NCBI RefSeq assembly: GCF_030253575.1
Contig: NC_080557.1
Location: 5,947,001 to 6,011,000 of the forward strand
Source: Rhododendron vialii
Taxonomy: Eukaryota; Streptophyta; Magnoliopsida; Ericales; Ericaceae
Direction of reading: 5' to 3'
Length of the DNA stretch: 64,000 nucleotides
The position numbers were made by a program, and so were the translations under genes. The notes below the pieces were generated by a model. That model saw only the letters and a program-made list of their open reading frames with translations. It was not told where the DNA came from and made no database searches. Numbering within the stretch: the stretch's first letter is position 1; each line of letters starts with the position of its first letter. Positions 1,715-39,288 of this stretch are shown here, piece after piece.

Positions 1715-2359
1715 TATAGCAGGCCGAGCAGAATGGCTCGTTCCATTCCGAGCGTGATCTAGTAACCGTGGCCGAGGGTTCCTTTTGCCGAGGGTTCCTC
1801 TAATTACATCTTCTTTAATACTCCATTCCCTACACCTGCTCGGGAAGGAGGATACGATCGTTTCGATAGCCGCCGAAGGTCCCACAACATGCTCGGTGCC
1901 GAGCATGGCTTGGCCGACGGTCCAGCTCATCCGCGTCAGAACAGCATTCATGGCTATGATGATGGTCGTGATGTCATCCGAACGGTTATGAGAACAATGA
2001 TGGTGGCACGTGAAGGTGCCAGCTCATCATGAAAACGGTTGCAAAACCCTAAACGTGATGCAACAGTGACATCAGCCGACGCGTGTCGAGCGTTGGTGCA
2101 ATCTTGGAGTCCAAGCGAAGGGTTTCCTATAAATATCCCATTATGCCTTCTTGGATAGGTACGCAAAAAGAAAACCCTAGCTCCCAATCTCTAACTCTTC
2201 CTTGCAAGAAAACTGACTCTTGCACCGGAGGGCCATCCCGGAGAACCTCCGGTGTGGTCTCTTAGTCGTGCTTCGTTTTGCAGGACTGGGCGAAGGAGAC
2301 AAGAGCAAGCCCCAAACCACCATTCAAAAAGGACGAACCACCCAAAATGGAGCCCCACA
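1715..2359 (+). repeat. 5' LTR of element 1
   Basis: Matches 12620-13263 nearly base for base. The first dinucleotide is TA here and TG in the 3' copy, which looks like a C-to-T change on the other strand. It carries the element's promoter and ends in CCCCACA directly before the leader. Confidence 0.95.
2128..2135 (+). promoter_or_regulatory. TATA box of element 1 LTR
   Basis: TATAAATA sits about 410 bp into the LTR. The same box is at 13033-13040 in the 3' LTR. Position and sequence fit the start of the genomic transcript roughly 30 bp downstream; no start site can be read directly. Confidence 0.7.
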
Positions 2360-2381: not shown

Positions 2382-2481
2382 TTGATTTTCAGATCCACGG
2401 CGGCTCCTCCACCTCGACCGCCTCGTTCGTACCTAAAAACCTCACCCCCTCGAGATCTCCACTAGTCTCCTCCAAAGAAAA

Positions 2482-5400
2482 ATGGGCGGAGCTCCACCAC
2501 CACCTCCTCTTTTTCAACCCCTCAGCTCCTCTTTGCACATCACCTCTGAGACCGGTATCAACGCTGCCTCCCCATCTCACCCTCCTGGATTTACTCCTCC
2601 AGGCGTAAGCTCTTCCATCCAACGTCCAGTAGGTCTGAGCAAAGATGCTCTAGCATACGTTCAACTGCTAGAGCAGCAACAAGAACAGACCAACGCTGAT
2701 GTAGCCGTCCTACGAATGGAGATCGAAAAAATTAAGGCCAAAGAATTCCCAACGGTCTCCCACTCTGGATCTCAGGATCGGCGCCGGAGAGGAAATTTGC
2801 CGCCCCCTCCGCCTTTGGGTATTGATGCACGGCCAAAAAGAATCTCAGTCCACGACCGCCTGGACCCACCATTGACGGACCATCGAACTGGGGACAGCGC
2901 TCGCCTTAGGCAGCAGCTCTCATCAGTTCATAAACGTCTCGGCAATGGTGCGGGACATACAGGCAGAGAAGGACGACGAGAGGGGAGCCCGCATACTGTC
3001 TTCTCCAGTTCATCGGCTGGAGACGAATACTCCCACGGCTCCCAAAGCTACGATACCGTGGAATTCCAAGACAACGATCAAGCTCTCATCCCATACAAAT
3101 CCGAACGGCAAAGAAGCCGAACGCCAAGAAGAAACGGGAAAGGTCCCCAGAGCCATCGGATCGAACACGATGAAGTCCCTCGGGAAAAGGCCTATGAAGG
3201 ACGAGCAACAAATTCAGTCAGCGCTCGGAGGCTAAACCGTGAAAGAAGCGTAAGTGTCGTCGTTCGGCAAGACGATCGCCCTAGCCGACGAAGAGTTTAC
3301 CATACCGAAAATCTTCCAGAAGAAGACTACGGAAAGGTCCCCATAGAAAAGAGGGAGAGGGGATTCCAACGTCGGCAGGATGAGAACGAACGAAAACAAA
3401 GAGAACAGGAATGCCGAGCATCAAAGAAGTCTCGAAACGCTCGGGAAGGTCTTCCCCCTCGGCCAACCCACGAGTACCAATTGAAAAAGCTGACAGAATC
3501 ACCCTTCTCGGCCAAGATCCAAGCCACTTTGCCGAAGCTAGGTCTACATCTTCCAAAATTCCAGAAGTTCGATCCCAGCACGACCGAGGCATACACCCAT
3601 CTCATCAGCTACAGAAGCACCATCTCATGCGTCACCGACGATGATGCCATCATGTGCAAAGCATTCCCCTCGAGTCTTGGGCGCCTCGGCTTACTTTGGT
3701 TCAACCAATTAGAGGCTGGATCGATCCATAGTTTCAAAGAGCTTGAAAGAGCTTTTAACTATCGGTTCATCACTAGCAACAAGCAAGCTAAAGAAGAAGA
3801 TGCCTTAGCCCAGATGAGAAAGAGGCCCGGCGAGACGCTTCGGAAGTATGCCGAACGTTACTGGCAGCTATTTAACGAGATACCCGGTGTTGATCAATAC
3901 TGGGCGGCAAGGAATTTTAAGAATGGTTTGGAAACTGGAAGCAAGATCTTGGATGAGCTGGCAATAAGGGCGCCTCATGGAATGAATGAGCTAATGAGGA
4001 CGGTAGAGCAGTTCTGTTCCTACGAAGAGTTCCTTGCCGAACGAGAACTTCAAGGAGGACAAAACTCAATTATACCTCAAAGCCTTCATGTCCCCACGCC
4101 CCAAATCGCACCACCGAAGCCTGTGGTCGCTGTCCAGCCGAAGAAGCAGGTCAACACAGTCAAGGTGGCAAACAAAAAGGGGCCGAAAGCTCATGACTAT
4201 GTAGCTGAAACCACAGTTTTCAAAGAGCCAATTTATTTCCTCCTCCGTACAATAGAGAGGGAACCGTTCTTCGCCTGGCCGAACCCTCCCAAATTGAACA
4301 CCGAAGAAGGAAACAACAACAATCGGAAGAGATGCTCGTACCATAATGAGCTCGGGCATTACACCACTGCTTGCGCTCCCTATAAGGCACTGTTGGAAAA
4401 TCTGGCGGCACAAGGACTTCTTGATGATCATATCGATTGGACAAAGACGCCGAAGAGACAGCCGAACGCTGCCGGACAAAACCTTATTCCGCGTCCAGTC
4501 GGAGTAATCAATGTTATTCATGGGTCAACAACAAAGGAGGCAGCAAGACAGCTTCGTCAAGAGCTTGTCAAAGCTGAGAAAGTTACCCAAATTTTTTCCA
4601 TCAATCGTGCTCCAAAACGAGTCAAAACGCTTGAGCGTCCTTGGTCAATCACCTTCACCGAGCAAGATTTACAACGTGTTCAAACACCCCATAGCGACGC
4701 TCTGGTGGTCACAATCCAAATCTCAACTCACTCTGTTAAAAGGGTGTTGATTGATCAAGGAAGCTCGGCAGAAGTAATGTACCTGTCTCTCTTTAAGGAA
4801 CTCAAAATTCCTGAATCGTGCCTTCTCCCCGCTGAAGTCCTTCTTATCGGATTCAATGGCACTCCCGTTTGGCCTATTGGACGGATTACCCTCCCTGTTG
4901 TCACAGGCTCGGTTGCTTCTAATTTGGAGTTTGTCGTTGTGGACGCCCCGAGCCCATACAACGCGATCCTCGGCCGAAATTGGCTTCATTCAATAAAAGC
5001 CGTCGCCTCAACCTACCACCAGGTGGTCAGATACATCGGCGCCAACGGCAGACAGGAAGACCTATTTGGAGATCAGTTACAAGCCAGACAGTGTTACGTC
5101 TCGGCCATTGGAAAGTCATCATGCACCAGAAGAGTACATTGGGTTGAAGTCCCCGACAAACCAGTTCTTGAAGACGTCGGATCTCTTCCTGAAGAGAAAT
5201 CAGTTGAGGATCTTATCAAATTCCCTCTTAACGACGATGCATCACGTTATTTCATGCTCGGCGCTGGTCTATCCCAAGCCGAGAGTGAAGAAACCTTGCA
5301 GTTCCTAAAAAGTAACATCGAAGTTTTTGCATGGACACCGTACGAAATGCCAGGCATTGACCCAAAGCTTATCCAGCACTCCCTTAAAGTTTCAAAATCA

Positions 5401-6828
5401 GCAAAGCCTGTAATTCAGAAGCCTCGGCGGTCAGCCAGCATTCACGCCGACGCAGTTAACGAAGAAGTCGGCAAACTCCTCGAGGCTGGCGCCATCAAAG
5501 AAGTACAATACCCCACTTGGCTCGCAAACCCTGTGGTGGTGAAAAAGAAGAATGGAAAATGGAGAGTTTGCGTGGACTACACCAACCTGAATGACGCTTG
5601 TCCGAAAGACTGCCTTCCCCTTCCAAAAATTGATCAACTGGTAGATGCAACGGCGGGTCATGCTCGGCTGAGTTTCTTGGATGCTTACCGAGGCTATCAC
5701 CAGATAGCCATGGATCCCGACGACATGGAAAAGACTGCATTCATCACACCCAGGGGCCTCTTCTGCTACCTAGTTATGCCGTTCGGCCTTAAGAATGCTG
5801 GTGCCACATTCCAAAGAATGGTATACTTGTTGTTCGGAATTCTCATCGGAGAAATCATGGAAGCTTATATCGACGATATGGTGGTGAAAAGTCTCAAGGC
5901 TGAGAATCACCTCTCTCATCTAGCTGAAGTCTTTGCAATCTTGAAAAAGCACAAGCTACGGCTTAACGCCGACAAGTGCGCCTTCGGAGTTAGCTCAGGG
6001 AAGTTCCTCGGCTACTTGGTTACTCGGCGCGGTATCGAGGCAGATCCGAACCAGATCTTCGCTATTCAGCAATTAAAACCACCATCCACTCCTCGGGAAA
6101 TTCAGAAGCTAACGGGGATGGCTGCGGCTCTCAACAGGTTTATTAGCCGCTCGTCGGATAAATGCCATGTCTTCTTCCAAACTCTCAAGAAACAAAGCCG
6201 ACGAAGTTTCAAATGGACGGAAGATTGTGATGCAGCCCTCGCCGAGCTAAAATCTTATCTCAGTTCGGCCCCACTTCTTGTCAAACCAGTAGCTTTCGAA
6301 ACTCTTCATCTCTATCTAGCTGTCTCTCCACACGCCGTGAGCTCGGCTCTTGTCCGACGGGAAGGCCTTGAGGACCAACCAATCTACTTTTCTAGCCGAA
6401 CCTTGCTCCCAGCACAGACCAGGTATCTGCCATTGGAGAAGCTTCTTCTAGCATTGGTTACAGCAGCTCGGAAATTGCTCCCTTATTTTCAAGAGCACCC
6501 CATCATAGTTCTCACCGAGTTTCCACTTAAGAACCTCTTGAGGAAGGCTGATCTATCTAGCAGAGTATCTCAATGGGCAGTCGAATTAGCAAATTTTGAT
6601 ATCCACTTTGAGCCTCGAACTGCAATCAAGGCACAAGTATTGGCAGACTTTATTGCTGAATTCACCCCTGGAAGCCCGGACGAGGAAGCACTGGTAAAGC
6701 CTAATTACGGATGCTGGAACAACAAGAGGCTCGGAAAGTTTGGAACTTATTTAGCGGAGACGTTTGGAAGTTGCACGTCGACGGGGCATCAAACAGCAAC
6801 GGCTCGGGCGCAGGGGTCGTTCTTGTAA
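2482..6828 (+). CDS. Gag-protease-reverse transcriptase-RNase H polyprotein of element 1
   Basis: One open frame of 1448 residues. Residues about 20-340 are a charged, proline- and arginine-rich leader. A retrotransposon Gag domain lies at about 355-475 (motifs LGLLWFNQL and [10 protein letters not shown]). A zinc finger of the form C-X2-H-X4-H-X4-C is near 617-630, in place of the usual CCHC knuckle. The aspartic protease has DQGSSAEV near 756. Reverse transcriptase covers about 985-1180, with [15 protein letters not shown] and the catalytic YIDD near 1129. RNase H follows to about 1393. The last 30 or so residues look out of frame: the second RNase H and integrase continue in another frame from 6711. 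The start is the first ATG after the LTR leader. The product would assemble cytoplasmic particles and copy the element RNA. Confidence 0.93.
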
Positions 6829-8471
6829 ACCCTTGTGGCGTCCTTCATGAAAGTGCTATCACAATCAACTTCCAAGCCACAAACAACGAAGCCGAATATG
6901 AGGCTCTGATTGCTGGTCTCCGAGCCGCGGCAAGTTTACAAGTTGAAGATCTACAAGTGTTCTGCGACTCTCAGCTGATCGTCAACCAAGTAACAGGTGA
7001 TTATGAAGCTCGGGACCCAAGAATGATTAAGTATCAAGCTACCGCTCTAGAGATAATCCGAGGGTTCAAAGGATTCCAAATCGAACAGATCAACAGAGAG
7101 AACAACGCTCATGCCGATGCTCTTGCAAGTTTGGCCTCGGCAAGCAAAGCATCTGAATACCGACATATCAGCCTCGGCGAGATCCACGAGCCGAGCTTTG
7201 AAGTATCGAAAGAAGTATACAACATTTCCCTCGGCCCAAGTTGGATGGATGAAATCATCTCATTTCTCAAAGATGATACTCTTCCCTCTGACAAAAAGGA
7301 GGCCCACCGTGTACGCAACAAAGCAGCCTACTACTGGATCTCTGAGCTCGGCCAACTCTACAGAAAAAGCTTCACTGGGCCATATCTTCGGGTTGTTCAC
7401 CCAACCGAGGTCCCGATTATTTTAACCGAGCTCCACTCTGGCAGCTGCGGTTGTCACTCTGGCGGCCGTTCCCTATGTCAAAGAGCTCTCAGTCAGGGAT
7501 ACTTTTGGAAAGGAATGAAGAAGGATTGTGAAGAGGTGGTCAGAAAGTGCAAGCCTTGCCAACTTTTCTCCCCCATACCAAGGCAACCAGCTCAATCTCT
7601 CAAACCTATCACTAGTCCATGGCCCTTTGCTCAGTGGGGCTTGGATATAGTAGGCAAACTTCCAACTGCCCCTGGGGGCTTCAAGTTCTTGATCACTGCA
7701 ACGGATTACTTCTCAAAATGGGTGGAAGCCGAACCATTAGTCACAACAACTGAAACTGACGTTCGGCGATTCGTTTGGAGGAACATTGTCACAAGGTTCG
7801 GCGTGCCTTATGCTATTGTATCGGATAACGGCTCACAATTCGTCGGTAAGGAATTAACTGGACTCTGTGCTGAGTTTGGAATTAGATTTTTCAATTCAAC
7901 CCCATCCTATCCCCAGGGCAACGGCCAGGCCGAGGCCACTAACAAAACTGTTTGCGCTGGCATCAAACGTCGGCTGGACTCTAAACGAGGAAAATGGGCC
8001 GAAGAACTTCCTAGGGTCCTTTGGGCCTACCGCTCCACTCCCAGACGCTCTACCGGCCAAACTCCCTTTGCAATGGCCTTCGGCATGGAGGCTGTCATAC
8101 CACTGGAATCGAAGTTCCCGACCCTGCGCACCGAAACTTTTGATCTAGAATCTAACAATAATGCAGTGGCAACCGAGCTAATCTTAGCCGAAGAAAAGCG
8201 AGACGATGCTCAGCTCAAGTTAGCCAACTATCAGCAAGAAGTCGCTCGGGGCTACAATCGAAGCGTAAGGCTTAAGAAGTTCAGAACCGACGACTGGGTC
8301 TGGAGGAAGGTTGTCCGAGCCAATCAAAAGACAAAATTCAAACCAAATTGGGAAGGACCCTACAGGGTGATTAAAGAGGTCGGCAATGGCTCGTACAAGT
8401 TAGAAGACAAAGAAGGAAGGGAAATTGAAAATCCCTGGAATGCTCTGAATCTCAGGAAGGCCTACCTTTGA
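6711..8471 (+). CDS. Second RNase H and integrase of element 1
   Basis: A 586-residue open frame overlapping the previous one by 118 bp in a different frame. Residues about 18-145 form an archaeal-type RNase H ([43 protein letters not shown]), the hallmark of Tat elements. The integrase zinc-binding region (H-H-C-C) is at about 237-285. The catalytic core has Asp in WGLDIVG, Asp in IVSDNGSQF and Glu in [11 protein letters not shown]. The C-terminal region ends in a GPYRVIKEV-type strand. No natural start is needed if the chain is made from the upstream frame by frameshifting; otherwise one indel near 6700 separated it from the rest of Pol. Confidence 0.92.
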
Positions 8472-9357
8472 ACTCTCGTTGATCGCACTCTATCACACCA
8501 CCTATCAAGTCTATTACTTTTCCCTTACCAAAGTGCTGTACTTGTCTTGGCAATCTTTTTAATGAAAAGTATCTCCTACTTCTGAAGCATCAGTGTTCTT
8601 CATATTTGATTACAATGATTCAAAATTTCAATCAGTATAAGCTCGGTATTCTAAACAGTTACAGCTACGTTCGGATTTCTTTACTACAAACACGATTATG
8701 GCTCGGACAATTTGATTTCCAGCCACAACTCGATTAAACAAATTGGTTCGGCAATGTCCACCCCTAGAACATTTACTTAACATATTGCCTTGGTACAAGG
8801 CTGGCATTTTGAGCCGAGCCTTATACCAGCATTGGGGCTGTTTTGAGTAAATCATAAACAACTCAGACAACTTAACGTCCAAACAGAAAGCAATAGATGA
8901 ACTTGAAAGTTTATCCTCAGTACGGCTATGTTCATAATTTGACTTGAACTAAATGGCCACATCAAACAATTACTCTACCTATTACCTTGGCATAAGACTG
9001 GCATTTTAAGCCGAGCCTTAAACCAAAGTAGGGGCTATCATATGAGTAACTATCAAAACTTTCAAAACAAACCAAGATTGTTTAACCCTCGGCAGCCAAA
9101 ACCAGAAAATATTTCTAAGGCATGAAGAAATATTCAGTGCAAAAACAAAGTTGGAATTTTTTCTAAGTCATTCAAACACAAACTTGAAATTCAGAATCTC
9201 CTACCCAGAGGGCTCGGCTTGGTAAAACGTTCGATGCCGACCCCCTTTAAACTATTACATCTGGCATGGCAAAACCCCAAATGTTCGGTGCCATCCAGTC
9301 CAAAAGCAAAGTTCAAAAATATTCAGAAACAAAACAAAATGAAACTTAAAGTGAATC
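8472..9357. other. Spacer between pol and the antisense gene of element 1
   Basis: No convincing coding frame. Two diverged copies of a segment meaning roughly 'ccttgg...aaggctggcattttgagccgagcctta' occur near 8790-8840 and 8984-9035, a short internal duplication. This should hold the 3' ends of both the sense pol and the antisense transcript, which converge here. Confidence 0.5.
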
Positions 9358-11678
9358 CTAAACTTGGGCATCTTCCGCAACTTTATCTTGAGCCTCGGGA
9401 CAGCTTTCGGCATCGGCAACCTTCTCCTGTTGATCGAGGCCAGGCACATCGGTCATCTCTTCATCATCATCTTCAGGAGGAAGAGGCTGACACTTCTCCT
9501 CCGTGTACGGAAGGTCAAGGTCTGGCAATGCCGGCTCGGGAAGTTGCTTCAGAAAACCCGACTCAGGTTGAATGGCCATAACACCGGCCATGGCGTCGGC
9601 ACCGGCAGAATACCCCAGCTTGAAAAAGTCAGGTAAACGAGCTTCGAGCTCGTCGTTTACCATCTTGTGAGCAATCTGGGTATACTCCAGCGCGGCTCGG
9701 TTAATTCCAGCCTCATAGCCTTTGGCGTCAGCAGCCTTGAGCTTCTCCTTCTCTTCCCTTCTCATCTTTTCGGCATCAGCCTCGGCAGCGGCCTTAACGT
9801 CGGCCAGCTCCTTCTTCAGCCGCTCCAGCTCTGCTTCCGCATCTTTTGCCTGCTGATCTGAGATCCTCCATTTGGTTCGGTAGGAATCTCGGTCAGACCT
9901 GTACCGTTCACGCTCGGCAGTAACTTTGGTGGCCTTGTCATATGCTTTCAGGGCAGCCTGTCTAGCCTGTCAGAACATGGGAGTAAAAGATTACCACAAA
10001 GCAAGTGCAAAGCAAAAATCACAAATACAAAAAAGTAAGCACAAGTAATACCTGCACAAGATGCGAGCACATTTCCCCGAGCCCTGGGATCAGGTCGGTT
10101 TGCACTTGATCGTAGTCTCTCGGGAGAGCTAGACCCCTGAGGAGCGTCACTGCAAGATTTGGTTCTTCCTTAACGGAATCACTCAATTGCAAGACCCTTC
10201 CGTCAGACATTGTGTAGGAAGGGCTGAATTGCCGTCGGATTGCAGCTTCGGTTGCAGGATCGGTAAGATCGATGTGAGGCTCGGGAAGATTCCTTTGCTC
10301 TTTGGGAGGAGAGGCTCGGGCAACGCTCGAGGGAGCTGACTGAGAAGGGTTCGACAGAAGAACATCCTCAGATGTCTTCTGTCTCTTCTCTTTCTGTTGG
10401 GGCTGCTGGTCCGAAGAGCCTCGGCTCCGAGCCGGGTTTGCCGACTTTGTCGGTATCACTGGCCTTGGAATGTTTCTTCTCGACATGTCTTGGGCAGCAG
10501 CGTCAGTTAAATCGTCGGATCTAAAGGGAGTAAGCCACTCCTCGGCGGTATATCCGATCTTCGGCAACCGAACACCTTGCTGCCGCTTCTCCCGAACGTT
10601 TTCAATGTAAGAAGCTCCCCCCTTTTTCGATGCTCCGGTTGTCTTGGAGGCACCCGCTTTCTTCTTCTTTGGTTCGGGTTCGGCTTCTTTACTCTTCTCT
10701 TTCCGTCTTAGCACGCCCTTGTATGAAGGTTTGTAGTCGAGAAGGGTTGGAGCGTGTCGGCAAGCTTGGGCGAGAAGCGTGTCGCAAGCTTTCTCTCGGG
10801 AATTTGTATTCAGTCCCTTCGATATAGGACCGAGCTCTGCAAAAACAAACAGCAATTCAAGAAATACTCTCATAAGAAGAGAAGACAAAACTAAAGCGTA
10901 ATTAACGACTTAAGCACGATTCGGTCTGATTACCTCTTGTATCAGCAACTTTCGGAACGGCGTACCGACGAAGACCGTCGCCGAACTCAAAGTTTCCATG
11001 CACTTCGAGGTAAAAATCGGCCCATTTATCCGTGTCGGATAGACCTTCGATCAAGGGGATCTTTTTAGGTCGGGTTGAAAGATACCGACGACCAGATTTG
11101 CCATGACGAGACATGGTGTAGGTAAAGAAAAGGTCCGTCGGCTTGAAGTCCAGATTTTGGCTCTCCATCAGGGCAATTACCGACATGATGATTCGGTAAC
11201 TGTTGATTGCCAATTGATGGGGAGCCAAGCTAAACTTCCATAGTATCTCCCTAAGGAAAGGGTGAAGGGGGAACCGTAGCCCGGCCTCGCAGATGGCCAT
11301 TAGGGGCACGGTTATGTGCTCGGGACGGTGATCCCTGTGGTCCTTTATATCGGTGCTTTTGACTCTGTGAATCAGAACGTCGTCGGGAATGTCGAACTTC
11401 CTACGGAACGCTGCATACTCTCCCGGATCGCCACTAAAGTAGTGGGCATAAGGGCATAACAGTCCCTTGTCAAAGAGGTCAGCATCGCTCGGCGCCGACG
11501 TTGAAGCCTCGGTTCCTGACATAAGCCTAGATTTGGCCTCTTGTCCCACGAGTGGCTCGGTCTCAGATTGGGTGTCTGAAGAGAAACTAATCTCCGGCTC
11601 TGTAATAAATCCATCTGCAGCATACTCGTAGTTGCGCTCGGCGTTAGAGTCGTCTGTCACTGGAGAAGTTGCCGACAT
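9358..11678 (-). CDS. Spliced antisense gene of element 1, transposase_28/plant-mobile-domain-like protein
   Basis: Coding exons on the minus strand are 11678-10934, 10836-10052 and 9966-9358. They sum to 2139 nt, exactly 713 codons with stop. Junctions have standard signals: donor GAG|GTAATC, acceptor TTGCAG|AG, donor TGCAG|GTATTA, acceptor GACAG|GC. Frame is kept across each. An upstream non-coding exon ends at 12204 (CAG|GTATGT) and joins at 11815; its frame also reads through, but the first ATG of the transcript is at 11678. Residues about 85-235 resemble the 'putative gypsy type transposon' family (DIPDDVLIHR, GLRFPLHPFL, LAPHQLAINSY). The middle is Ser/Pro/Lys-rich. Residues about 511-590 are a charged coiled coil, and the tail is acidic. 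The function is unknown. Confidence 0.82.
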
Positions 11679-11815
11679 CCTTGTTGAAGAAGATACAACC
11701 GCTCGGCTATTCCTCAACCTACGCCACTCGATAAGTTCGCTGAGGAATTGACGATCGGATTCGGTTTCCGAGCAATCCGAGTCTGATGACACGTCGATGA
11801 CCTCGTGAGCCAGAC

Positions 11816-12203
11816 CTAGGAAAAGAACAAAGGGGTATTAAGCTAGAGAAATCTGCGTCGGCAAAGAAGATCGTGTGGAAGTACGGTTCATCTTATCGGC
11901 TCACGAGTCATATTCTAACCTATAGTGGGCTCGGTACTCCTACAAAGACTCTCCTACGTTCGGCAAAATAAGAGGGTTGGGGAACGTTCGGTAATTTATC
12001 CCTAATAAATAAATCGTTCGGCTGAGCCCCAGATGTCCTATGGGGGCTCGGAAGAACAGGATGAGTTCAGGGATGAACATCATCGTTCTCCCCAGAAATC
12101 CACTATTCATACAGTACAAAAAACTCAAAAATCATCCCAAAAACCCAGAAAATAAGCATAAAAAGCGAGAGAAAGACTAAAACGACAAGAATCGATGACA
12201 TAC
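11816..12203 (-). other. Leader intron of the antisense gene of element 1
   Basis: Bounded on the minus strand by CAG|GTATGT at the 12204/12203 junction and CCTAG|GT at 11816/11815. No ATG occurs in the exon upstream of it after the TATA box, so the first exon would be untranslated. Inferred from splice signals only. Confidence 0.6.
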
Positions 12204-12342
12204 CTGAAGATTTCAGTTGATTTGGGGCTTGAAGTTGAGGATTTGGATTCAAGCTGAGCTCTGGAACGGAAATGAAGAGAAAGAAGGTCCAAGCGCTAGA
12301 GAGAGAAAGTGCAGGAGAACTTTCTCTCTCCTCCTTCACCGG

Positions 12343-12350
12343 TATTTATA
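12343..12350 (-). promoter_or_regulatory. Antisense TATA box of element 1
   Basis: On the minus strand the sequence reads CTTATAAATACC. It lies about 270 bp inside the 3' LTR, with the first donor site 139 bp downstream. A start near 12315 would give a first exon of about 110 bp. This makes the antisense gene independent of the LTR promoter. Inferred from motif and position. Confidence 0.6.
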
Positions 12351-12619
12351 AGCAGAGCAGGCCTTTTCGAATTTCCCGCCCATCATTTCACCGCCGAACC
12401 CCTCGCCAACCTCTACGTGACACGTGGCAACTGAAGCCCTTGCCCATGGCAGCCGTCCCCTCGTCTGCCCAGATGTCCTTTCAACTGACGCACCCGTTCG
12501 AATACTCGACAGCTGTTACCCAATCTGGGGCTCGGATTTTTCTGCCGAAGGTTCAAGCTCGGCCAAGTTTTGAATCAACCCATACCGAGTGAAAAGCTTC
12601 GGCATGGTTGAGGGGCTAT

Positions 12620-13263
12620 TGTAGCAGGCCGAGCAGAATGGCTCGTTCCATTCCGAGCGTGATCTAGTAACCGTGGCCGAGGGTTCCTTTTGCCGAGGGT
12701 TCCTCTAATTACATCTTCTTTAATACTCCATTCCCTACACCTGCTCGGGAAGGAGGATACGATCGTTTCGATAGCCGCCGAAGGTCCCACAACATGCTCG
12801 GTGCCGAGCATGGCTTGGCCGACGGTCCAGCTCATCCGCGTCAGAACAGCATTCATGGCTATGATGATGGTCGTGATGTCATCCGAACGGTTATGAGAAC
12901 AATGATGGTGGCACGTGAAGGTGCCAGCTCATCATGAAAACGGTTGCAAAACCCTAAACGTGATGCAACAGTGACATCAGCCGACGCGTGTCGAGCGTTG
13001 GTGCAATCTTGGAGTCCAAGCGAAGGGTTTCCTATAAATATCCCATTATGCCTTCTTGGATAGGTACGCAAAAAGAAAACCCTAGCTCCCAATCTCTAAC
13101 TCTTCCTTGCAAGAAAACTGACTCTTGCACCGGAGGGCCATCCCAGAGAACCTCCGGTGTGGTCTCTTAGTCGTGCTCGTTTTGCAGGACTGGGCGAAGG
13201 AGATAAGAGCAAGCCCCAAACCACCATTCAAAAAGGACGAACCACCCAAAATGGAGCCCCACA
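12620..13263 (+). repeat. 3' LTR of element 1, with polypurine tract just upstream
   Basis: Starts TGTAGCAGG and ends CCCCACA, with the target duplication GTGAC at 13264-13268. The G-rich tract GAGGGGCTAT immediately before it (about 12610-12619) is the likely plus-strand primer. Compared with the 5' LTR it differs at position 2, at one A/G near 13145, at one missing T near 13177 and at one T/C near 13203. Confidence 0.94.
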
Positions 13264-13268
13264 GTGAC

Positions 13269-15617: not shown

Positions 15618-18600
15618 TCAAACGACGAATCTATTGTCTAGCCAGACTTCAGGAATGTGTGCAATGGAGCGCCAATATTGGCCTTTACCCTTTTCGCATT
15701 GTCGTTTCAGTATCGGACATTCTTTGATCCACAAATACAAAAGCGAGGGAGGCAGCCCTTGCTCCGGAAACGATGCGAGCTTGGGGCAGCGACCGATGTA
15801 CAATTTCGAAAGCGAGGGAGGCAGTCTTAGCTCTGAAATGGACGTGAGCTTGGGGCAGTTTCTGATTTCAAGTCGTTCAAGAGAGACTAGAATTTCCAAG
15901 TCCTTGAAAGATAGCTTCTCCAGATTTGGGAAGCTCTGGATGTCCAGAACGACCAGAGAGGAGGGAAACGACAACATCCCATCTTCTGGAAAGCTCACCC
16001 CATCACAATTCTCAAGGGAGAGTTCTCTGAGAGAGTACAATCGGTGCAAGCCACACAGCTTACCGATGTCGACATCGTAGATGGTAAGTTCAGTGAGGTT
16101 GGTAAAGTTGGAGGAACTTCCTTCATCCAGAATGTGGGAGAGGAGTCCTGTACCCGCAGGAAAACCACCTACGGACAGCTCTTCAACAGAAGCGAGGCGG
16201 TTGTTGTTGTACGCGTGGTTTGGAAGGGGCTCGAGTTTCTCGCAGTTAAATATATCAAAATACCTGAAATTGGTTGTGGGAAACCATCCTTCCGGAAGGG
16301 ACTCCAGATTACCACACCCATATATCACCAGTCGACTGAGATTCTTGAGACCATTATTATTTTGCATGACATCTGGTAGGGTTTTGAGGCGCTCACAATA
16401 TAAGATCTGAACAGATTCAAGAGACGGACAATTGATCTTAATCCCCTCGTCTGCTATTAGCGACTTTAGCTCTGCACAACTATGAACCTCCAGTTTTTTG
16501 AGAGCGGGCAGGAGCCCACTTCCGGAACTTAAGTACGGCAGGGATGGACAGGAATCAATATACAGCTTCTCAAGATTATTCAGCAACGTCAAATCAGGTA
16601 GGGACGCCAGCTCATCACAGTCAATAATCTGCAGCTTTTTCAGCGTAGACGGCAAGACAGGGAAAGAGATGAGGCGTGGACACTGGGAGATGGAAAGCTC
16701 TTGAAGAGATTTGAGGTTATCTCCTTCTTCTCCTTCTGCAAACAAGGAAATAAGTTGGGAGCAACCTTGAATAGTGAGACGTCGGAGGGCAGGGAGACGG
16801 TTTTGTAGTCTCACCTCATCCTCCCACAATGCTGTGAGTTCTTCGAAACCGTGGAGAGATAATTCTTGGATTCCCGTCAGCCCTTGAAAAATCCAACTGG
16901 GTAGGCATGTGTGACCCCAAATATTTTCCATTTTGAGGGAAGTTAGCGAGCTCAAGAGGCTATGGCTTGAGTTTTTGAGTACTACTTGATCACCAACTTC
17001 TGAACTACCCAAGGATTCGGCAATCAAAACATCTTTTAGACGCAAGGACACGAGTGAGTCAAAGTGAAGCGTATTCCACACATCATTCAGCTTTGAAGGG
17101 CTTGGGATCCATGCAACCACCAACACCGGGCACTCCTCCACATCCAATTTTCTTAGCCGAGGAAGATTTCTTGGCAACTCGTGTGAAAGCTTGGGACATC
17201 TTTCAATGGAGAGCTCTGATAGGCGAGCAAATGCTTGAGCTCCCTCCTCGACTCCAAAAGGAGTCCACTCATTCCATTCGGGCATGTCTTTGAAGGTTAA
17301 AATCTCCAAAGCTGGGAAAGGATTTGAGCGACCCAAGCCATAAAACTCAAGTCCAACATTACCTACTGCCTTCATTCCTTGAATGTAGAGCTTTGCAAGC
17401 GAGGGTAACTGCCCCAAAGGTGGCAAGGAAGTGCATTTTTCACAATTTTGGAACTTCAAGCAGACAATGTTGGAGAACAAAGAATTCCCAATCCAATTTG
17501 GGAATGTGAAGCCACCGTAACCATTAATGGAAAGCTCTTTTAAGTTCTTGTGAGGCTCTAGCATATCAAGCACTTGTGATTCAACATTTTCATTGTGAGA
17601 ATTATCCGAGATGTTACTCCACTCCATCCTTAGCACATTTAAACCTTGTTTATCCTTCAAGTTGGCCCTCCTTGCATCTGGAGCATTTGTCACAGTCTCC
17701 AACCCTGATATGCTAAGTGTCCCTCTAAGATGAATCAAGCTGCCCAGCTCAGTTATCATGGACCCGTTGCCATTGCCAACAATGAAATTTGATAAAGTTT
17801 GGAGACTTTTCAATTTTCCAATTTTTGGTGGCATTTCTTGTAAGGAATCTGCACCAGTAACATCGAGATGACGCAAACTAATCAAGTCACTAGTGTTTGC
17901 AGGCAAATTCTTAAGATTTTTACAATCTCTCAAAATTAGCGTTTGTAGGTTGTAGAGAGTGCCTATTAATTCTGGTAACATTAAAACCAAGGCACATGAA
18001 AGGTCAAGGTACCTCACATGCTTCAAATCCCCAATCGAATTGGAAAGTTCACCTATTAGATATCTTCGCAAACTAAGCACACGTAAACGTTTGAGACCCG
18101 GTAACAGACGAAGGGGAACATTGCTAGTCAAGTAGGACTTTTCTTGATATCTAGACCCACATGGTAAAAAAGTTCGCAAATTTTTGGCTTTGTGAAAGGC
18201 CTCAAACTTCTTTATGCCATCACGATACCCACATGAGTAGGATGAATGTCGAGCCTTGCTGATACTTTCATCTCGTTCACTCTCTTTCAGCTTTTCAATT
18301 TCCTCCAGCCTAAAACAAGTTTTTCTTGCAAAAAACTGAGCCAAATCATTGATGAGGTCATGCATAACAAATAGTTCACCACTACTTGATCGTTGAAAAA
18401 ATGACCTTGATAACAATTCATGGAAGTACTCACAACCAAGATCTTCCATTTGCCTTTCCCCTGTTTGCTTCGGAACTAAGCCTTCTGCCATCCACAAGAA
18501 AACTATTTCCTCCTCCTCAAATTCGTAATCCTTGGGCAAAATGGAACAATATGCAAAACACTTCTTCAAATGCGAAGGGAGGTGATAGTAACTTAATCTC

Positions 18601-19846
18601 AAAGCTGGAAGAATGTGACTTTCCTCTTCTGATAACTCCCATATTTTACTTTTTAATACTCCTTTCCATTCATCATCGGTCAACTTGCACCGTAGAAGGC
18701 CACCAAGTGTCCTAGCTGCCAAAGGCAAACCTTTACATTTTTTCATAATTTCCTTACCAATTGAAACCAAATTTTGATTTGCATCCATACTTCTACCCTC
18801 AAATGCATGTTGTGCAAACACTAACCAACACTCATCCTCGGATAGTTCCTTTAGGGAGTGATATTTATTGGGTCCAGCCATTGTAAATGCAACATCACTA
18901 TTGCGTGTTGTTACAATGACTTTACTTCCCGGGGCCCATCATTGAAAGGACTCTTTAAACTACTCCAGTCACCATGGTTTTTGTTCCACACATCATCAAG
19001 AACAATCAAGAACTTTTTCCCGGCCAAAGCCTTTTGTAGCTCAACTTGCACTTGAGCCAAGGCTTTAAACTCGCAGGTCTTGGAAGTGACAAACTCAAGA
19101 ATCGCTTTTGTCACTCCAACAATGTCAAACACTTCTGATACACAGACCCATGCTTTCATCTCAAAATGCTTGTCTACCATCTCATCTTTATAGACCATCT
19201 GAGCAAGGGTGGTCTTGCCGACCCCACCCATACCCACAATCGGGACTACACCAACTTTGTTATCACCAGACTGTTCACTCATGAGCAACTCTATTATCGC
19301 ATTTTTATCATTATCCCTACCATACAAACAAGGCTCAATTATCAAAGGCGAAGTGGGTTGTCTTTGTGAAGCTTGACCACACCACCCTGCAGCAATGTTT
19401 TTCAAGCCAAGCCCCATTCTCCGATTAAAAAGGTCTTGCAACCTTGTAGTGATCTCGTTCATCTCGGACCTCATTCTAAAATCAGACACTAGCATGCTTG
19501 GATTAAAACTTGTGCAGCAATTAGGTATGAGTGCACGTACCGTGCTAGTGCTAGCTCGATGCTCTTCCTTCACCTTCCGTCGCAAAGCTTCGGTAGCGAA
19601 CTCATCCAGTAAGTCATCCATATCATAACTCAAGTCTTCAAGATCAGAGAGCCACAAATTAACACCCAGATCCGTGATTTGTTTCTCCTCAGCATCCGCA
19701 ACCACCGCCTGAACTTGTGCCAACATGCTGCTCCATTTCGTCAGCTGAGTACCAATCCGCTCCGTACGTGCAAAGTTCCACAGATCGCCGGATGCTAACC
19801 TATCAACTAGCACGTTAACGAAAGCACCAAGGAATATTTCGGCCAT
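15618..19846 (-). CDS. CC-NBS-LRR disease resistance protein, RPP13-like 1 type (copy A, one frameshift)
   Basis: Intracellular immune receptor of about 1400 residues. The start MAEIFL at 19846 is chosen over an upstream ATG at 19894 because copy B has the same start at 57888. The first frame (19846-18911) has a coiled coil with YDMDDLLDEF, P-loop GMGGVGKTT at about 205-213, RNBS-A HFEMKAWVCVSEVFD and kinase-2 KKFLIVLDDVW. The second frame (18881-15618) has GLPLA, RNBS-D CFAYCSILPKDYEF and VMHDLINDL, then about 850 residues of leucine-rich repeats ending at EVWLDNRFVV. Between them one base is missing in the GC run near 18930-18936 compared with copy B, so the NB-ARC frame breaks just before the KVIVTTR motif. 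Otherwise intact, with no intron. Either a recent pseudogene or a sequence error in a GGGGCCC run. Confidence 0.92.
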
Positions 19847-21128
19847 TTTTTTTGCTCTGTGGAAAATGAAGTTGTGTTGCACAGAGAAAACCAAAGGGTG
19901 ATACGCGTGAATGCTGATTGATATTCACCAAAGTTTTGCTAGTTGGAAACTGGAGGCTGATGAGTGTGGGCCCCCCAAGAGGAATCTGCTTTTTTTCTTC
20001 ATCATTGACTCATTGTTCATTTACTGTACTTGAATTATCAAGATCAACTAATCTAATTGACATCATACATGTACTGATGTACACATTTAAAGCCCATTTA
20101 GATTGTGAGGAAGTGTGTAATAAGAAATGGGAATACGAAAATCAATCAAGAAATATCATTTTTGTAATTTTCTCTCTTCATTTGTAACTTCACACGCTAA
20201 AAATAAAAATTGGAGTGATTAATTTAGAAAGTGCAAAAATCACTATTACTTGGCAAAACTCTACATGAATATAATGGAGGGCCCTTCTCCTTGAAAATTT
20301 TCTCATGGGAGAGAGAAAGTCAATAATGGAGTCTCCAATGTTAATTGAGAAGAATAATCTGAATGTACCCCTACACAAGGAAGGACTTTCGGGCGGATGA
20401 GTTTGTACGGTCGTTTTTCTACAGTTTTCTAGAATTATATGTAGGAGTAGAAGTTAATTTTTTCGCCACCGGCCAATAGGTTTTGTTTTAAAGTTCAGAC
20501 ACTTGTCACTTGACCAACTAATTTTTATTTTGAAAAACATCAATAATCATCGTGCATCAATAAAAACTTTGACACGAAGCTCAATTTCTTCAATTTCCTC
20601 ATCCAGTTATAGGGGTAAATTAGCCCCAAAGTATCAACGAAGTGCCATTTTGGTCTCCAGTATAAAAATTGTTGATCGGGGCATTGGGAAGAAAATTGGC
20701 ACTGCTAATACTTTGAGGAACATCGATAAAATGACACTTCAATAAGCCCTACCATTGTTGTAAATAAATTATCTATTGTAGACATTGTTAACTTTGGTTT
20801 CTGAAAACCACTTTCTCTCTCTTAGCACAGTCCTCAATAAGAATTTTTTCCAATTATTACTGTCACTTATCTATCTATATCTCTTCACTTATTATTCCAA
20901 AGAAGTAAAATGAAATTAATGTAATCAATTTTAGGGTCACTAAGGAAGTTCAAGTTGACTAAGTGCAATAAAAGTAAAAGAAAACAATTTGATTTTGACA
21001 CTCCACTTTTAGCCATTGGTACTCTACTTTTTTTTTCGTATTTGAAATTATAACAATATCCTTCTATATGTGAGAAAGTGGATGAGTACTAACAAAATAA
21101 AGGGTAGCTTGGTAATTTCATTGCATAT
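19847..21128. other. 5' flank of resistance gene copy A
   Basis: No gene. A segment near 20600-20745 (AGCCCCAAAGTAT, then AGGAACATCGATAAAATGA) recurs in diverged form near 60440-60640 upstream of copy B. GGGCCCTTCTCCTTG at about 20280 recurs near 58100, so the duplicated block extends upstream of the genes. No clear TATA box for the resistance gene was found. Confidence 0.5.
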
Positions 21129-29884: not shown

Positions 29885-30577
29885 TGTTTGTACCATAATT
29901 AAGACTTCCATTTTTACCCGTCGATCAGGCGACACGTGGCAAGGGTAAATATGGGCAAGTAGAAGAATAGAATGGACTCACCTTAATAATTTAGAATGGA
30001 AGTAAATCGATGGTGAAACTATAAAAAGTCTTGTCCGTCGATTGGCCTACACGTGGCGTATTCCTATGGCCTTTTGGTCCGTCGATCAGGTGACAGGTGT
30101 CAAAAGGAATTAGATCCCATGATTCCACGATTAAAGAGAATGTTAACCGCAATTAACAAAACAATTTTCCCAACGTGGGCATGATCGGCAGTTAGAGAAG
30201 TTTCTTCAGCAGAATTCGAGGGAGTTTTCAACTGCTACTTTGGGGGGAAGATTTGAATTCAAATGTAGGGAGGCCTATTTAAGAACAAGTTAGTAGCAGT
30301 TTCAGGGACACACAAACAACGCAAATCAGGCCTTTATCTTTTCTTTTCTAGGAGTAGAGTTAACTTGTAATTGCTCACTCAATCATCTCGATTGATTGTT
30401 CTTCTACTTTGAGGGTTAATAAAGTCTATTTTGTTAATCTTCTTCCACACTTCATCCACTTTATTATTTGTTTCCAAAGAAGTCCTGAAATACGGCAAGG
30501 AACCAAACTCCCACATTCCAACAAGCTTACGATACAATTTCCCGTCGATTGGAAAGAAAACAAGAATTTTGGTAACA
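29885..30577 (+). repeat. 5' LTR of element 2
   Basis: TGTTTGTACC ... GGTAACA. A likely core promoter is CTATTTAAG near 30277. The primer-binding site TTGGCGCTAGAAGGAGG begins a few bases downstream at about 30581; the tRNA is not assigned. Confidence 0.93.
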
Positions 30578-30623
30578 ATTTTGGCGCTAGAAGGAGGGCT
30601 CATTACTAATTTGGAAGTGAGCA

Positions 30624-33326
30624 ATGGCACCGAAGACTAGGAATCAATTGCAAACAGATGGTAACAATGACAACAATTATGCCAATACTAATGGTGGAAG
30701 TGATGCAAATGGAATCAATGCTGTGAATCCGGACCAGAGGAGTCCAGAAGGGGGCCAACCAAATGGCCTAGAGATCGAATCATGTGACTTGATCCAAAAA
30801 TTTGCAAGAGTTTTAAATGATCCAGAAAGTGAGGTAGCCAAAACTTTGATGGCTATGTTTAAGGCATAGGTGGCACAAAATCAACCAACAGTGGAAGTCC
30901 CAGTTAACGTAAACGTTAACCCTGGACAGACCAGTGGATATGCCAACCGTAGTACTGAAGTACCTTCTACGCAGGTATTTGATAATCCAACTTTTGAAAC
31001 TATTTTTACTGGTATGAATAGGGTTCCAAATAATATTAGCAATGGTCAAAATCAGAGCTTTTATCAAAGTATACCAACTACTGTCCCTATGGGAATAGAG
31101 AATGGAAATATTGGAAATAATGCCCATGGAGGGCAAAATATTTATGCAAATATTTTTAGGAATGATAACAGGAACATTCCAAGTATTGCTAATGGTGATC
31201 CAAATCTTTATGGGTACGATCCACCAAACATAAGAAGACAAGATTATCCATATGGGTATGATATTAGACCTGAAACCCTTGTTCCTCCAAATCAAACCGG
31301 AAGAATACAGGAGCCTTATTTAAGGGCTCAACTCACGAATATTATGCAAGATATGTATGGTCCTGGATTACGTTGAATTGAAAAACCTATGTTTAGAAAA
31401 CCGTATCCAAACTGGGTTGATAATGTGCCTTTTCCAAGGCATTATAGAATTCCAAATTTAGTTCTTTTCAATGGAGAGGAAAATCAGTCAACTATAGAGC
31501 ATGTTGGGAGATTTTGCCTGCAAATAAGTGAAGCAGATTTGGACGAGGCTCTAAAATTAAAGTTGTTTCCTCATTCTCTTACCAGAACTGCTTTTTCTTG
31601 GTTTATTAATTTGCCTCCAAATTCTGTTCATTCTTGGAGAGAAATGGAAGAACAGTTCCATACTCAATTCTTTAGGCATGCACCAGAAATTTCAGTAGCA
31701 GACTTGGCTAAAATCAAACAAAAGCCTTCAGAGTCTGTTGGACAATATATGAACAGGTTCAAAAAGATTAGGAATCAGTGTCATTTTTACATCCTCGAGT
31801 CTGAAATAGTGAAGATAGCCCAAGAAGGGCTTGATTATGATTTTAAGAAACATTTTACTGGAACTGAATTCAGAGATTTATTTGATTTTACTTCCAAAGC
31901 CATAGGATATGAGGCTATTCTTATGGAAGGGGAGTACAGGAAAAGTAAATCACTTGGTACATATTACCAAGATATAGAAGGAGACGTAGAGATTGATGTT
32001 GCCCAAGTGATTGGAAAAGCACCAATTGTTTGTGACACCTTAACAAAGGCTGAGAAGCCTGTGAATATGCCTTCATCTCATCCAAACAGGAGAAATCAAG
32101 CAAATTTTAGACAATACTCATTTGATTTGTCCAAAGCTGATCAACTATTTGATGAACTAATTAATCAAAAGTTCTTAACTTTATCACCAGGGCATATGAT
32201 TCCTCTTGAAAAGGATAGAAAGGGAAAAGATTACTGTAAGTGGCATAATTCTTTTCGACACAATACTAACAATTGTGTTACATTTCAAAATTGTGTGCAG
32301 AACCTGATCCAGAAGGGCCTGTTACAGTATGCTAAGGGAAATAAAGAAGTGATGGGTATTGATATTGATCCTTTTCCCTTGGTGGAAGTCAATATGGTGA
32401 CTGCCAGATTGAAGAAAGGGAAAATGGCATCTCAAATTGAAAGAAGGATTCAAGAAACAGAAGAAATTATGGAAGGAGAAGAGGAAGTTCAAGTGAAGCA
32501 GAAATTTGAGAATTACTTTTGTTTGAGATGTGATGAGGAGATTAAGAAAGGGGAAGAGATTATTGCAGAAAAAGAGTACAATGGTACCTATGCTAAAGGT
32601 TCCATTAGATTCAATACTATGGGAAGTAGTGATTTGCAGATTTATGTAGGACCAAAGTTGATTTTTAAAGGTGAAGACCCTGGAATTTTTATACCTTTTG
32701 AATCACTCAAATGGTATGGGGAAGATGATGAACCATTCCTATTTAAAGGATATCCTGTGATTCCAGCACTACCTGGGAAGCCAGATGCAAGCCTAATATA
32801 TCCACTTTCATTTATGAATGGAAGGGGAAGAGGTTTTTACCCAAGGGGTGTAAGATTAAGGGGAAGAATGCCTTTTGTCAGAGGTGGATATCAAGGAAGG
32901 ATGGTAATTTCGCCAAATATTGAGCATCATGGATGGGATACAGTGAGACATCCTAAATTCCCAAATGTTAGGGAATTCGTACCCGTTACCAACACTCAGA
33001 AAAGGAGGTTACAAAGGAAGATTTCAAAAAGAGAAAGAAGAGACCAGCAAATAACGATGGATTCAACACAGTGGCCAGAAATGAAGGCCAGAACAGTTCT
33101 AAATCAGGCAGCCCCTATGGTTTGGACTAGGGAGTCCACTATGCCAGTTTCAACAGTGCCTAAACAAAAGGCAAAGGAAGTAGAAAAACCTGGGGGGCAA
33201 ATAATCAAACCAACCATTACCCAAAGGCTTGGGGGGCAAAGCTCAAGTTCTTCTCCTGTTCTATCGATTAAGGAACAAAAGGCGGAATTCAAGAAGAGCT
33301 TAAAGAAGAAGATGGAAGAATTTTAA
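30624..33326 (+). pseudogene. Gag region of element 2, interrupted
   Basis: Three pieces in one frame are split by stops at 30867-30869 (TAG) and 31374-31376 (TGA). The 645-residue piece from 31389 holds the Gag domain (FPHSLTRTAFSWFINLPPNS, ESVGQYMNRF) and a zinc finger of the form C-X2-H-X4-H-X4-C (CKWHNSFRHNTNNC), the same unusual variant as in element 1. The region after it is basic and glycine/arginine-rich. It ends in TAA at 33324-33326, six bases before the next frame, which may be a normal gag stop or another lesion. Confidence 0.88.
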
Positions 33327-33332
33327 CAAGTA

Positions 33333-35905: not shown

Positions 35906-35947
35906 ATCTTAACAAGGCCTTTATTAAGAGGCAAACGAGAAAAATGG

Positions 35948-37861
35948 TTGTTATCTCTGATAGAATATGATTTACAGTACGTGCCTCAAAAGGCAGTAAA
36001 AGGGCAAGCTTTAGCTGACTTTATAGCTAACCATCCTAACATGTTAATGGAAAAGGATGAATTTGAGATACATATGATTGAAATGAAACCATGGAAATTG
36101 TCATTCGATGGTTCTAAAACTGACAGAGGGGTTGGAGCAGGCGTAGTTTTTACATCTCCAAAAGGGGAATTTTTACAGTTTTCTTTTCAGTTAGATGAAA
36201 GCAGGATTTTGACCAACAATCAAGCTGAGTATGAAGCTTTGATTATCGGTTTAGAGATTGCAAAAGAATTGAATATTAGGTATTTAAATGTTACGGGGGA
36301 CTCACAATTGGTGATTCGACAGATAACAGGGGAATATAAGTGCAATCACCCTTTATTAGAGTTACAACTGCAGAAAGTTAAAATTCTTGTAGCATATTTT
36401 GATGAAGTGCATTTGCAACATGTCTATAGATTGGAGAATAGTGATGCTAATCAGATGGCACAAATTGCTTCTGGAATTAGGATCCCAGAAGGACAGAATG
36501 AAAAATTAATAAAAGTCCAGAAGAGATTCTTGTCTTTCTCTATTGAAAGAGATAGCAATGATTTTGAAGTTATGGAAATAAGCTTGGTTGATGATTGGAG
36601 AGTTCCAATAAGGAAATTCCTAGAGAATCCGAAGGAGAAAACAGACAGAAATATAAAGCAAAGGGCCATTAATTATGTTATAATGGGCAATGATTTGTTT
36701 AGAAAATCTTCAGATGAAGTATTATTGCTGTGTATTGATAAATCCCAAACAATGACGGTTATGGGAGAAGTTCATGAGGGAACTTGCGGTTCTCATCAGT
36801 TTGGAGAGAAAATGAAATGGTTACTTAAAAGATATGGCTATTATTGGCCAACAATAAGGAAAGATTGTATCTCTTATGCTAAGGGATGTCAAAAATGTCA
36901 ACAATGTGGACCCATTCAAAGGGTTCCAGCTTTTCCTTTACAATTGATTGTTAAACCGTGGCCTTTCAGGGGGTGGGCAATTGATATGATTGGAGAAATA
37001 ATTCCTCACTCTTCTCAACAACATGAGTATGTAATGGTAGCTACGGATTATTTTACGAAATGGACAGAAGCCATCCCATTGAAGAGTGTGGCACAGAAAC
37101 AGGTAATTGATTTCATTGAAGAGTATAGTTTCTGTCGATTTGGTATTCCTGAAACAATTACGGTTGACCAAGCATCCGTGTTCAATGGTCACAAAGTAAT
37201 GACTTATGTTAATTCATATGGAGTAAAAATCTTAAATTCTTCTCCCTATTATGCCCAAGCAAATGGGTAAGTGGAATCTACTAATAAAATTATCAAGAAT
37301 ACTCTATCTAAAATGATAACTGACAATCCAAGGGAATGGCATAATTTACTGCCAAGAGTGTTATGGGCTTATAGGACTTCAAAAAGGGAAAGCACAAGAG
37401 CTACACCATATGAGTTAGTATATGGCCAAGCTGCAGTATTACCCGTTGAAGTTAATATTACATCTCACAGAGTTGCTTGGCATTATGGCCCAAATAATGT
37501 GGATTTCGAGGAAGCAATGTATCAAGAATTAGATGGGCTGGAAGAATCCAGAATAGATGCTTTAAATAATATACAAGCACAAAAGAAAAATCTAGAGAGA
37601 GTTTATAATAAAAGAGTACATGAAAAATCATTTGCAGAAGGTGATTTGGTTTGGAAGGCAATTTTGCCTTTAGATAAGAAAAAGAAAAGATATTTCGGTA
37701 AATGGTCTCCAAATTGGGAGGGACCATTTCGAGTATTAAAAGTACTAAGAGGTGGTGCTTATCAGTTAGAATCTATTCTTGGACATGTTCATGAAAGAAC
37801 AATCAATGGAAAATATTTAAAGGCATATTTTCCATCTCCTTGGGAGTTAATCGACGAATGA
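35948..37861 (+). pseudogene. Second RNase H and integrase of element 2, one stop
   Basis: One frame of about 637 codons is broken by TAA at 37268-37270, two residues before the catalytic glutamate (VEST). The archaeal-type RNase H has LSFDGSKTDRGVGAG and NNQAEYEALIIGL. The integrase zinc region and core (WAIDMIGE, ATDYFTKW, VDQASVFNG) follow, and the C-terminus has NWEGPFRVLK. The stop is one C-to-T change away from a Gln codon. Confidence 0.9.
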
Positions 37862-39194: not shown

Positions 39195-39288
39195 GATTTC
39201 AATTTGACTATGAGCAGAAAATTACGAAAAGTGAGAAGTTAATTGAGAATAAGAGAGGATCGATGTGCAACCATCCCATAAAGGTTTC

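Follow-up and report, generated by a model that had tools for sequence, protein, structure and literature searches.

The stretch of Rhododendron vialii DNA analysed here, 64,000 nt of contig NC_080557.1 (referred to as the window, and numbered from its first nucleotide), contains a long terminal repeat (LTR) retrotransposon that carries a gene on the minus strand, i.e. antisense to the gag and pol frames of the element. The gene is placed between pol and the 3′ LTR, and comprises three coding exons, a leader exon and a TATA box. The TATA box, TATAAATA at 12343..12350 on the minus strand, lies ~140 nt above the first donor; the exact 8-mer occurs four times on the minus strand within the 64 kb. 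A G-box (CACGTG, 12421..12426) is found upstream of it, a possible sign of light or stress control of the gene. The leader (exon 1, 12204..12318, its 5′ end assumed to be ~25 nt below the TATA box) lacks an ATG and is probably noncoding. It is followed by intron 1 (11816..12203, with eight ATGs in the window copy), exon 2 (exon edge at 11815, and 10934..11678 from its ATG), intron 2 (10837..10933, 97 nt), exon 3 (10052..10836), intron 3 (9967..10051, 85 nt) and exon 4 (9358..9966), all on the minus strand, with a stop codon at 9360-9358. The three introns are all GT-AG and the joins are in frame. Read from ATG 11678 the exons contribute 745 + 785 + 609 nt, i.e. 713 codons including the stop. 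These exons, splice sites and in-frame joins had been proposed in a first-pass annotation of the sequence, and are confirmed; the junction coordinates given there are the edge bases of the exons.

A search for the longest ATG-to-stop frame under permissive splice rules, with up to two introns, returned exactly this model of 712 amino acids (aa), against maxima of 284, 311 and 264 aa in sets of 150 (dinucleotide), 100 and 60 shuffles respectively. When donors are restricted to AG/GTA, nothing better is obtained even if three introns are allowed (shuffle maximum 200 aa, 60 shuffles); permissive donors with three introns turn up other models of 766 aa. The longest spliced frame on the plus strand of the same region is 155 aa. 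Each of the three coding exons has a strong three-base periodicity, reached by 0/500 shuffles in every case, and in the introns it is not significant. The T contents of introns 2 and 3 are 45% and 52%, while exon windows of equal length never exceed 33%. Within the stretch from pol to the 3′ LTR, 90-nt windows with T ≥ 45% on the minus strand are confined to the end of the leader together with the start of intron 1, to the two later introns and to the 3′ end of the gene. On a simple home-made consensus score donor 1 ranks first of the 210 GTs in the region. Donors 2 and 3 are unremarkable on this score (tied among the best 23 of 210). Of the 301 AGs, the three acceptors are among the best 3, 3 and 8. 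Codon usage correlates with that of gag-pol with r = 0.63 in the correct frame, compared with 0.09-0.32 in the other five.

The predicted protein has several recognizable parts. Likeness to transposase_28 had been noticed from the sequence, and a search with the Pfam profile PF04195 (Transposase_28, TRP28) bears this out. Exon 2 alone scores 28.0 bits against a cut-off of 26.2, matching profile positions 5-50 of 69 at aa 128-173; the whole 712 aa score 25.8 bits, just under the cut-off. Exon 3 encodes mostly a basic linker of low hydrophobicity that includes the sequences KKKK and KRQK, which are similar to nuclear localization signals. The coiled coil that had also been proposed is found in exon 4, where a long coiled-coil-like helix is predicted at exon residues 29-130 (single-sequence AlphaFold2; predicted local distance difference test score (pLDDT) 76-89 at residues 31-110, lower at the ends), together with an acidic tail. 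A heptad-like pattern, judged by a crude score, agrees with the predicted helix. A sequence search of the PDB gave no match up to E 1, and relatives of the TRP28 exon were not found in plasmids.

The host element is bounded by a 5′ LTR (1715..2359, plus strand), which starts with TA rather than TG, and a 3′ LTR (12620..13263, plus strand). A 5 bp target duplication, GTGAC, is present on either flank, at 1710-1714 just before the 5′ LTR and at 13264-13268 just after the 3′ LTR. The LTRs are nearly identical, as had been stated earlier; 640/643 aligned positions match (99.5%), with one further difference at the terminal dinucleotide. At a substitution rate of 1.3 × 10−8 per site per year the LTR distance corresponds to an age of ~0.18 million years (My). 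The first internal frame (2437..6828, plus strand, stop to stop) encodes gag, protease, reverse transcriptase (RT) and RNase H (RH), with Pfam matches to Retrotrans_gag, Asp_protease_2 (weak, E 0.054), RVT_1 and RT_RNaseH. The second (6705..8471, plus strand, stop to stop, in a different frame) encodes a second RNase H (aRH) and integrase, with matches to RVT_3, Integrase_H2C2 and rve. RVT_3, the archaeal-type second RNase H, lies between the RT_RNaseH and integrase domains, which is a trait common to Retand and Ogre. The region between pol and the 3′ LTR is 4,148 bp. Tandem repeat arrays, an optional Retand trait present in about half of the elements, were not found at 8400-12700. Both LTRs are within the range of 315-1,194 bp reported for Retand in the available part of PMC11963269. 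Judged by the dual RNase H, the size of the region and the antisense TRP28, this appears to be a young Ty3/gypsy element that fits the Retand lineage (Tat) as described in the accessible portions of PMC11963269 and PMC6317226. We note that in the window copy pol is broken into two frames at 6705-6828, between the RNase H and the second RNase H. Over the piece 5437-6960, 18/18 alignable relatives differ in length from the window and 10/18 read the whole piece in one frame, and so the split looks private to the window copy.

Other copies of the gene were sought in the genome (532.6 Mb, 13 contigs) with the exon 3 open reading frame (ORF) as DNA query. Of 105 candidate places, 40 were scored, among them the window (78-100% identity), and we aligned ~4.2 kb around each of the 39 other copies to the window. 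In 33 of the 39 the leader and every coding exon are at least 97.5% present; more is lacking in the others (L033, L035, L040, L042, L045 and L047). The TATA box near the 3′ LTR, which was also part of the original prediction for this DNA, is exact in 32/37 other copies having the region. ATG 11678 is present in 38/38 other copies having the place, and the stop is at the same place in 30/35. The copies near the window (L009-L014) are 90-100% identical in every part. For the 33 copies L015-L047 the identity to the window over aligned parts is 76-93% in exon 2, 78-89% in exon 3 and 72-92% in exon 4, and 70-94%, 46-78% and 55-87% in introns 1, 2 and 3. The mean pairwise distances of the three introns are 0.16, 0.44 and 0.27. 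Compared with the exons, intron 2 is clearly less constrained, intron 3 partly so, and intron 1 not. A further copy of the same family (L072) has both coding introns at the same places, with three aligned stretches of 69-92% aa identity. Two copies, L015 and L016, are mosaic relative to the window, being 94-97% identical in promoter, leader and intron 1, and 82% and 75% identical in exons 2 and 4; this suggests recombination near the start of the gene. In L015 intron 2 is 105 nt in length, and the TRP28 match of this copy has an open frame of 617 aa.

Comparison of the copies indicates that the spliced protein has been under purifying selection while the family spread. The ratio of nonsynonymous to synonymous divergence (dN/dS; Nei-Gojobori, ratio of means, excluding codons where either copy has a gap or a stop) is 0.105 over the 780 pairs from 40 copies, i.e. 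far from 1, and 0.071, 0.118 and 0.115 for exons 2, 3 and 4 respectively. By contrast, shifted-frame controls on the same letters give 1.69 and 1.67. The 11 copies without disabling changes (window included, L033 excluded) have a dN/dS of 0.093 (55 pairs). The ratio depends on depth, going from 0.43 at dS < 0.03 (13 pairs) to 0.10 at dS 0.5-1.5 (552 pairs). The former value is what free decay of inserted copies would give; recent pairs record unselected decay, and deep pairs the selection that acted on the spreading lineage. The first-pass annotation had also proposed that the gene is under selection, arguing from an intact copy in a young element. The proposal stands on the ratio between copies, but the argument does not, because ~0.18 My is short for decay and the closest pairs have a dN/dS of 0.43. 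As a yardstick, over 171 pairs (18 aligned copies of the first 20 fetched, plus the window) the RT-RH piece of pol has a dN/dS of 0.056, and the antisense gene 0.103. Synonymous divergence in the same pairs is over twofold greater in the antisense gene (0.55 vs 0.24), which hints at exchange between subfamilies. Purifying selection at the level of codons on the spliced form shows the predicted product to be a protein that matters to the element.

The start of this protein requires separate consideration. In 33/38 copies (window included) no other ATG precedes ATG 11678 in the spliced message, and the leader parts of the window contain none. Yet the 45 codons that precede it (11679..11813, minus strand) are open in 35/38 copies, with a dN/dS of 0.32 (0.19-0.48 by bootstrap over codons) that compares with 0.96 and 1.29 in the other two frames of the same stretch. 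Exon 2 has CTG 11813 as its first complete codon, and this CTG is kept in 38/38 copies (window included) with G at −3 and +4. The peptide of the stretch starts LAHEVIDVSSDSD in 28/38 copies, and we take this acidic N-terminal sequence to resemble a SUMO-interaction motif. Initiation at the CUG, giving 757 residues, is the better guess and one that we consider fairly probable. The frame of the complete 712-residue gene described earlier is correct, but the protein is probably too short at its N-terminus. Alternatively, translation may start at ATG 11678, with the conserved stretch before it having another role. The presence of this ATG in all other copies that have the place, and its being the first in most, agree with that, and the lack of three-base periodicity upstream of it in the window copy weighs against the CUG start; set against the constraint on the upstream codons and the invariant CTG, we regard the ATG start as rather doubtful.

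Other ways of starting the protein were rejected. Exon 1 gives no clear sign of being coding, its dN/dS being 0.71 in frame compared with 0.81 and 0.70 in the other frames, although its stops are fewer in frame (11/38 copies) than in the others (31 and 38). For an alternative first exon bearing an AUG, the best pairing of an ATG with a donor keeps an open, in-frame reading in 31/38 copies, but this requires an exon of 7 nt with a poor site and we judge it worse than the CTG. A permissive three-intron model that takes its ATG from intron 1 leaves out some of the constrained stretch, and is likewise judged worse than the CTG.

The antisense transcript might act only as RNA, i.e. by convergent transcription generating double-stranded RNA (dsRNA) against gag-pol, with the reading frame being incidental. 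Genomic RNA of the element should overlap the gene in antisense, and the available text of PMC7264820 considers regulation by dsRNA from such transcripts. However, an RNA-only role would not distinguish codon positions, and the contrast between a dN/dS of 0.105 and 1.7 in the shifted frames therefore disfavours it as the sole function. The distribution of insertions and deletions (indels) points in the same direction. Those that are not a multiple of three (events ≥ 60 nt excluded, and events shared by descent counted in each copy) are rare in exons 2, 3 and 4, at 0.25, 0.30 and 0.53 per kb, and common in introns 1, 2 and 3, at 7.4, 18.5 and 13.4 per kb. We consider a purely RNA function to be very improbable. 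Convergent transcription alone cannot explain the codon-level constraint, but could still be an added role.

Still less probable is that a host gene or another transposon has become nested in the element by chance. The promoter motif, the introns and the coiled-coil-like end are as in a host gene, but the gene could be aligned in 39 further copies, 33 of them with near-complete leader and coding exons, the RT-RH piece is found at the expected distance in 18 of the first 20 copies, and TRP28 at this position is a feature of Retand in the part of PMC11963269 available. Just as slight is the chance that the three antisense ORFs found on reading the element from stop to stop (311, 296 and 203 codons) are one unspliced gene broken by frameshifts, the introns being artefacts of reading: ORFs 2 and 3 overlap by 8 nt and could be linked by a frameshift, and introns 1 and 3 are as conserved as the exons in some copies, but the GT and AG are held in place across 37-39 copies (donors 37/37, 39/39 and 38/38, and acceptors 36/37, 39/39 and 37/38, for introns 1, 2 and 3) while the length between them and the sequence of intron 2 change, and the introns are without periodicity, introns 2 and 3 being T-rich.

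The interpretation that we prefer, at a probability of about 0.85, is that this Retand-type (Tat, Ty3/gypsy) element carries a minus-strand gene for a spliced accessory protein between pol and the 3′ LTR, that the gene is under purifying selection, and that its product is likely to be nuclear and to act in trans. Transcription would start below the TATA box, and the leader intron with its many AUGs would be removed by splicing. Translation would then proceed from the CUG at the start of exon 2 (757 aa) or from ATG 11678 (712 aa). The expected product has an acidic N-terminal motif like those that interact with SUMO, then TRP28, the basic linker and the coiled coil. It would probably enter the nucleus, dimerize and bind chromatin or DNA, and probably act in trans on how the element family is transcribed or silenced. 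Its most likely role, by analogy, is that of an accessory protein working in the nucleus for the element. The inference of nuclear location and DNA binding comes from the nuclear location of Grande gene23 (PMC7264820) and the predicted DNA binding of TRP28 (PMC11963269), each as given in the accessible part of the paper. The antisense orientation would let the element keep its introns through reverse transcription, because in the sense genomic RNA they appear as CT-AC and are left unspliced. Retrotransposition reporters exploit the same antisense-intron trick in mirror image, as described in the available section of PMC12786077.

A number of points weigh against the accessory-protein interpretation. 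In L015-L047 the identities of introns 1 (70-94%) and 3 (55-87%) overlap those of the exons (72-93%), and so these introns are not clearly faster in every copy. Only 11/39 other copies have neither a frame-breaking indel nor a stop within the frame, and among these 11 L033 has lost the promoter, the leader and an acceptor. Pairs and indel events are non-independent and were pooled without a tree, so that the dN/dS figures are averages, not test statistics. The single-sequence model of the TRP28 exon is unusable, with a mean pLDDT of 34.6. For nuclear entry, DNA binding and action in trans the support comes from weak motifs together with published analogy. Lastly, the transcription and splicing of the gene are predicted from DNA sequence.

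The TRP28 domain extends beyond this family. There are at least 109 PF04195 matches in the genome (150 of 1,960 candidates scored), and none in 14 control genomes. Among six further TRP28 loci (L068-L073), L069-L071 (another family) and L073 (a third family) give TRP28 and a coiled coil in separate computed exons. The computed model of L068 has no coiled coil, and an alignment of L069-L071 gave no sign that the introns are faster.

A second, older Tat-type element is found in the window at 29885-43930, with LTRs that are about 97% identical, a CCCTC duplication on both sides and an interrupted gag-pol. It carries an antisense plant mobile domain (PMD) gene, for which the computed model is 43052-41441 + 41003-39991 (874 aa, one intron), with TATATATA upstream. 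Maxima of 192-202 aa were obtained with 60 shuffles. The C-terminal end of the protein is coiled-coil-like. The intron is uncertain, as position 41040 offers a better-looking acceptor, but one that does not keep the frame with the chosen donor. A separate antisense ORF of the second element (38406-39221, minus strand, 271 aa) shows strong periodicity of the coding kind and matches nothing in Pfam. The TRP28 and PMD proteins show no relation by hhalign of single sequences (E 0.23), and tblastn with the TRP28 exon, the RT-RH piece and the PMD exon found no relatives among viral contigs. Elsewhere in the window, resistance-type genes or gene fragments of the coiled-coil, nucleotide-binding, leucine-rich repeat class (CC-NB-LRR) lie on the minus strand at 15621-19924 and about 50000-58131, in blocks that are 87-91% identical. 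Together with the Tat-type retrotransposons, such genes make up a content characteristic of flowering plants.

The computed models of the other TRP28 families and of the PMD gene are weakly suggestive of a common plan, comprising an N-terminal domain, a linker and a coiled coil with introns between them. Extending this, it may be that the antisense ORFs described separately across Retand (TRP28, Smc-like coiled coil and others) all belong, as exons, to a single gene with several introns, CUG-initiated after a leader intron; we put this forward tentatively, at somewhat short of even odds. If true, the antisense orientation would be what enables a retroelement to have a spliced gene of its own, with the protein made only from the promoter of that gene.

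Antisense ORFs in such elements have been reported before, and are more widespread than the first-pass annotation, which mentioned them for some Tat elements, had supposed. In the accessible part of the survey by Vicient (2025, PMC11963269) antisense TRP28 ORFs are present in all but two of 63 Retand clusters (97%). The clusters are of recently active elements, and Retand is there said to have thousands of copies in maize and Silene. That survey took single ORFs of ≥ 600 nt from ORF Finder. An earlier one (PMC6317226, available text), using getorf with ≥ 250 codons, found TRP28 in 23% of Retand elements. Single-ORF surveys of this sort overlook the gene model with its start, introns and domains. 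The authors of PMC7264820 ask, in the portion available, for a search for spliced antisense transcripts. The word 'intron' is absent from the accessible text of PMC11963269 and of PMC7264820. A spliced antisense gene of this kind was not found in the titles and abstract openings of the literature searched; subscription papers were not covered, so priority is uncertain. The antisense TRP28 ORFs themselves were already known, and what is new is the evidence from 39 other copies for a spliced and selected structure. Antisense TRP28 genes are near-universal in Retand clusters, and a correct model makes their transcripts and protein function directly testable.

Several known systems may be compared with the gene described here, each as presented in the available parts of the papers cited. 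ORFs for PMD (PF10536) are reported in Ty3/gypsy elements (PMC6317226, PMC5418596 and PMC9289625), and a PMD gene, antisense and at the same position, is carried by the second Tat-type element of the window. HBZ of the human T-cell leukaemia virus HTLV-1 (PMC11963269) is likewise an antisense accessory gene of a retroelement, and its product is nuclear and regulatory; we claim no relation in sequence. The HTLV antisense promoter is reported to be inside the 3′ LTR (PMC7264820), whereas here the TATA box lies between the gene and the LTR. The maize Grande gene23 (via PMC7264820) is also an antisense accessory gene in the 3′ internal region; it is reported to be transcribed from its own promoter and to have a nuclear product, as may be the case for the gene described here. 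The closest parallel is with the Retand antisense TRP28 ORFs of PMC11963269, which like the gene in R. vialii are antisense, lie between pol and the 3′ LTR and match PF04195, with LTR and region sizes that include those found here; Smc and other domains are also reported there. In contrast to those single ORFs, the ORFs in the present element are exons of one predicted spliced gene, for which selection has been tested.

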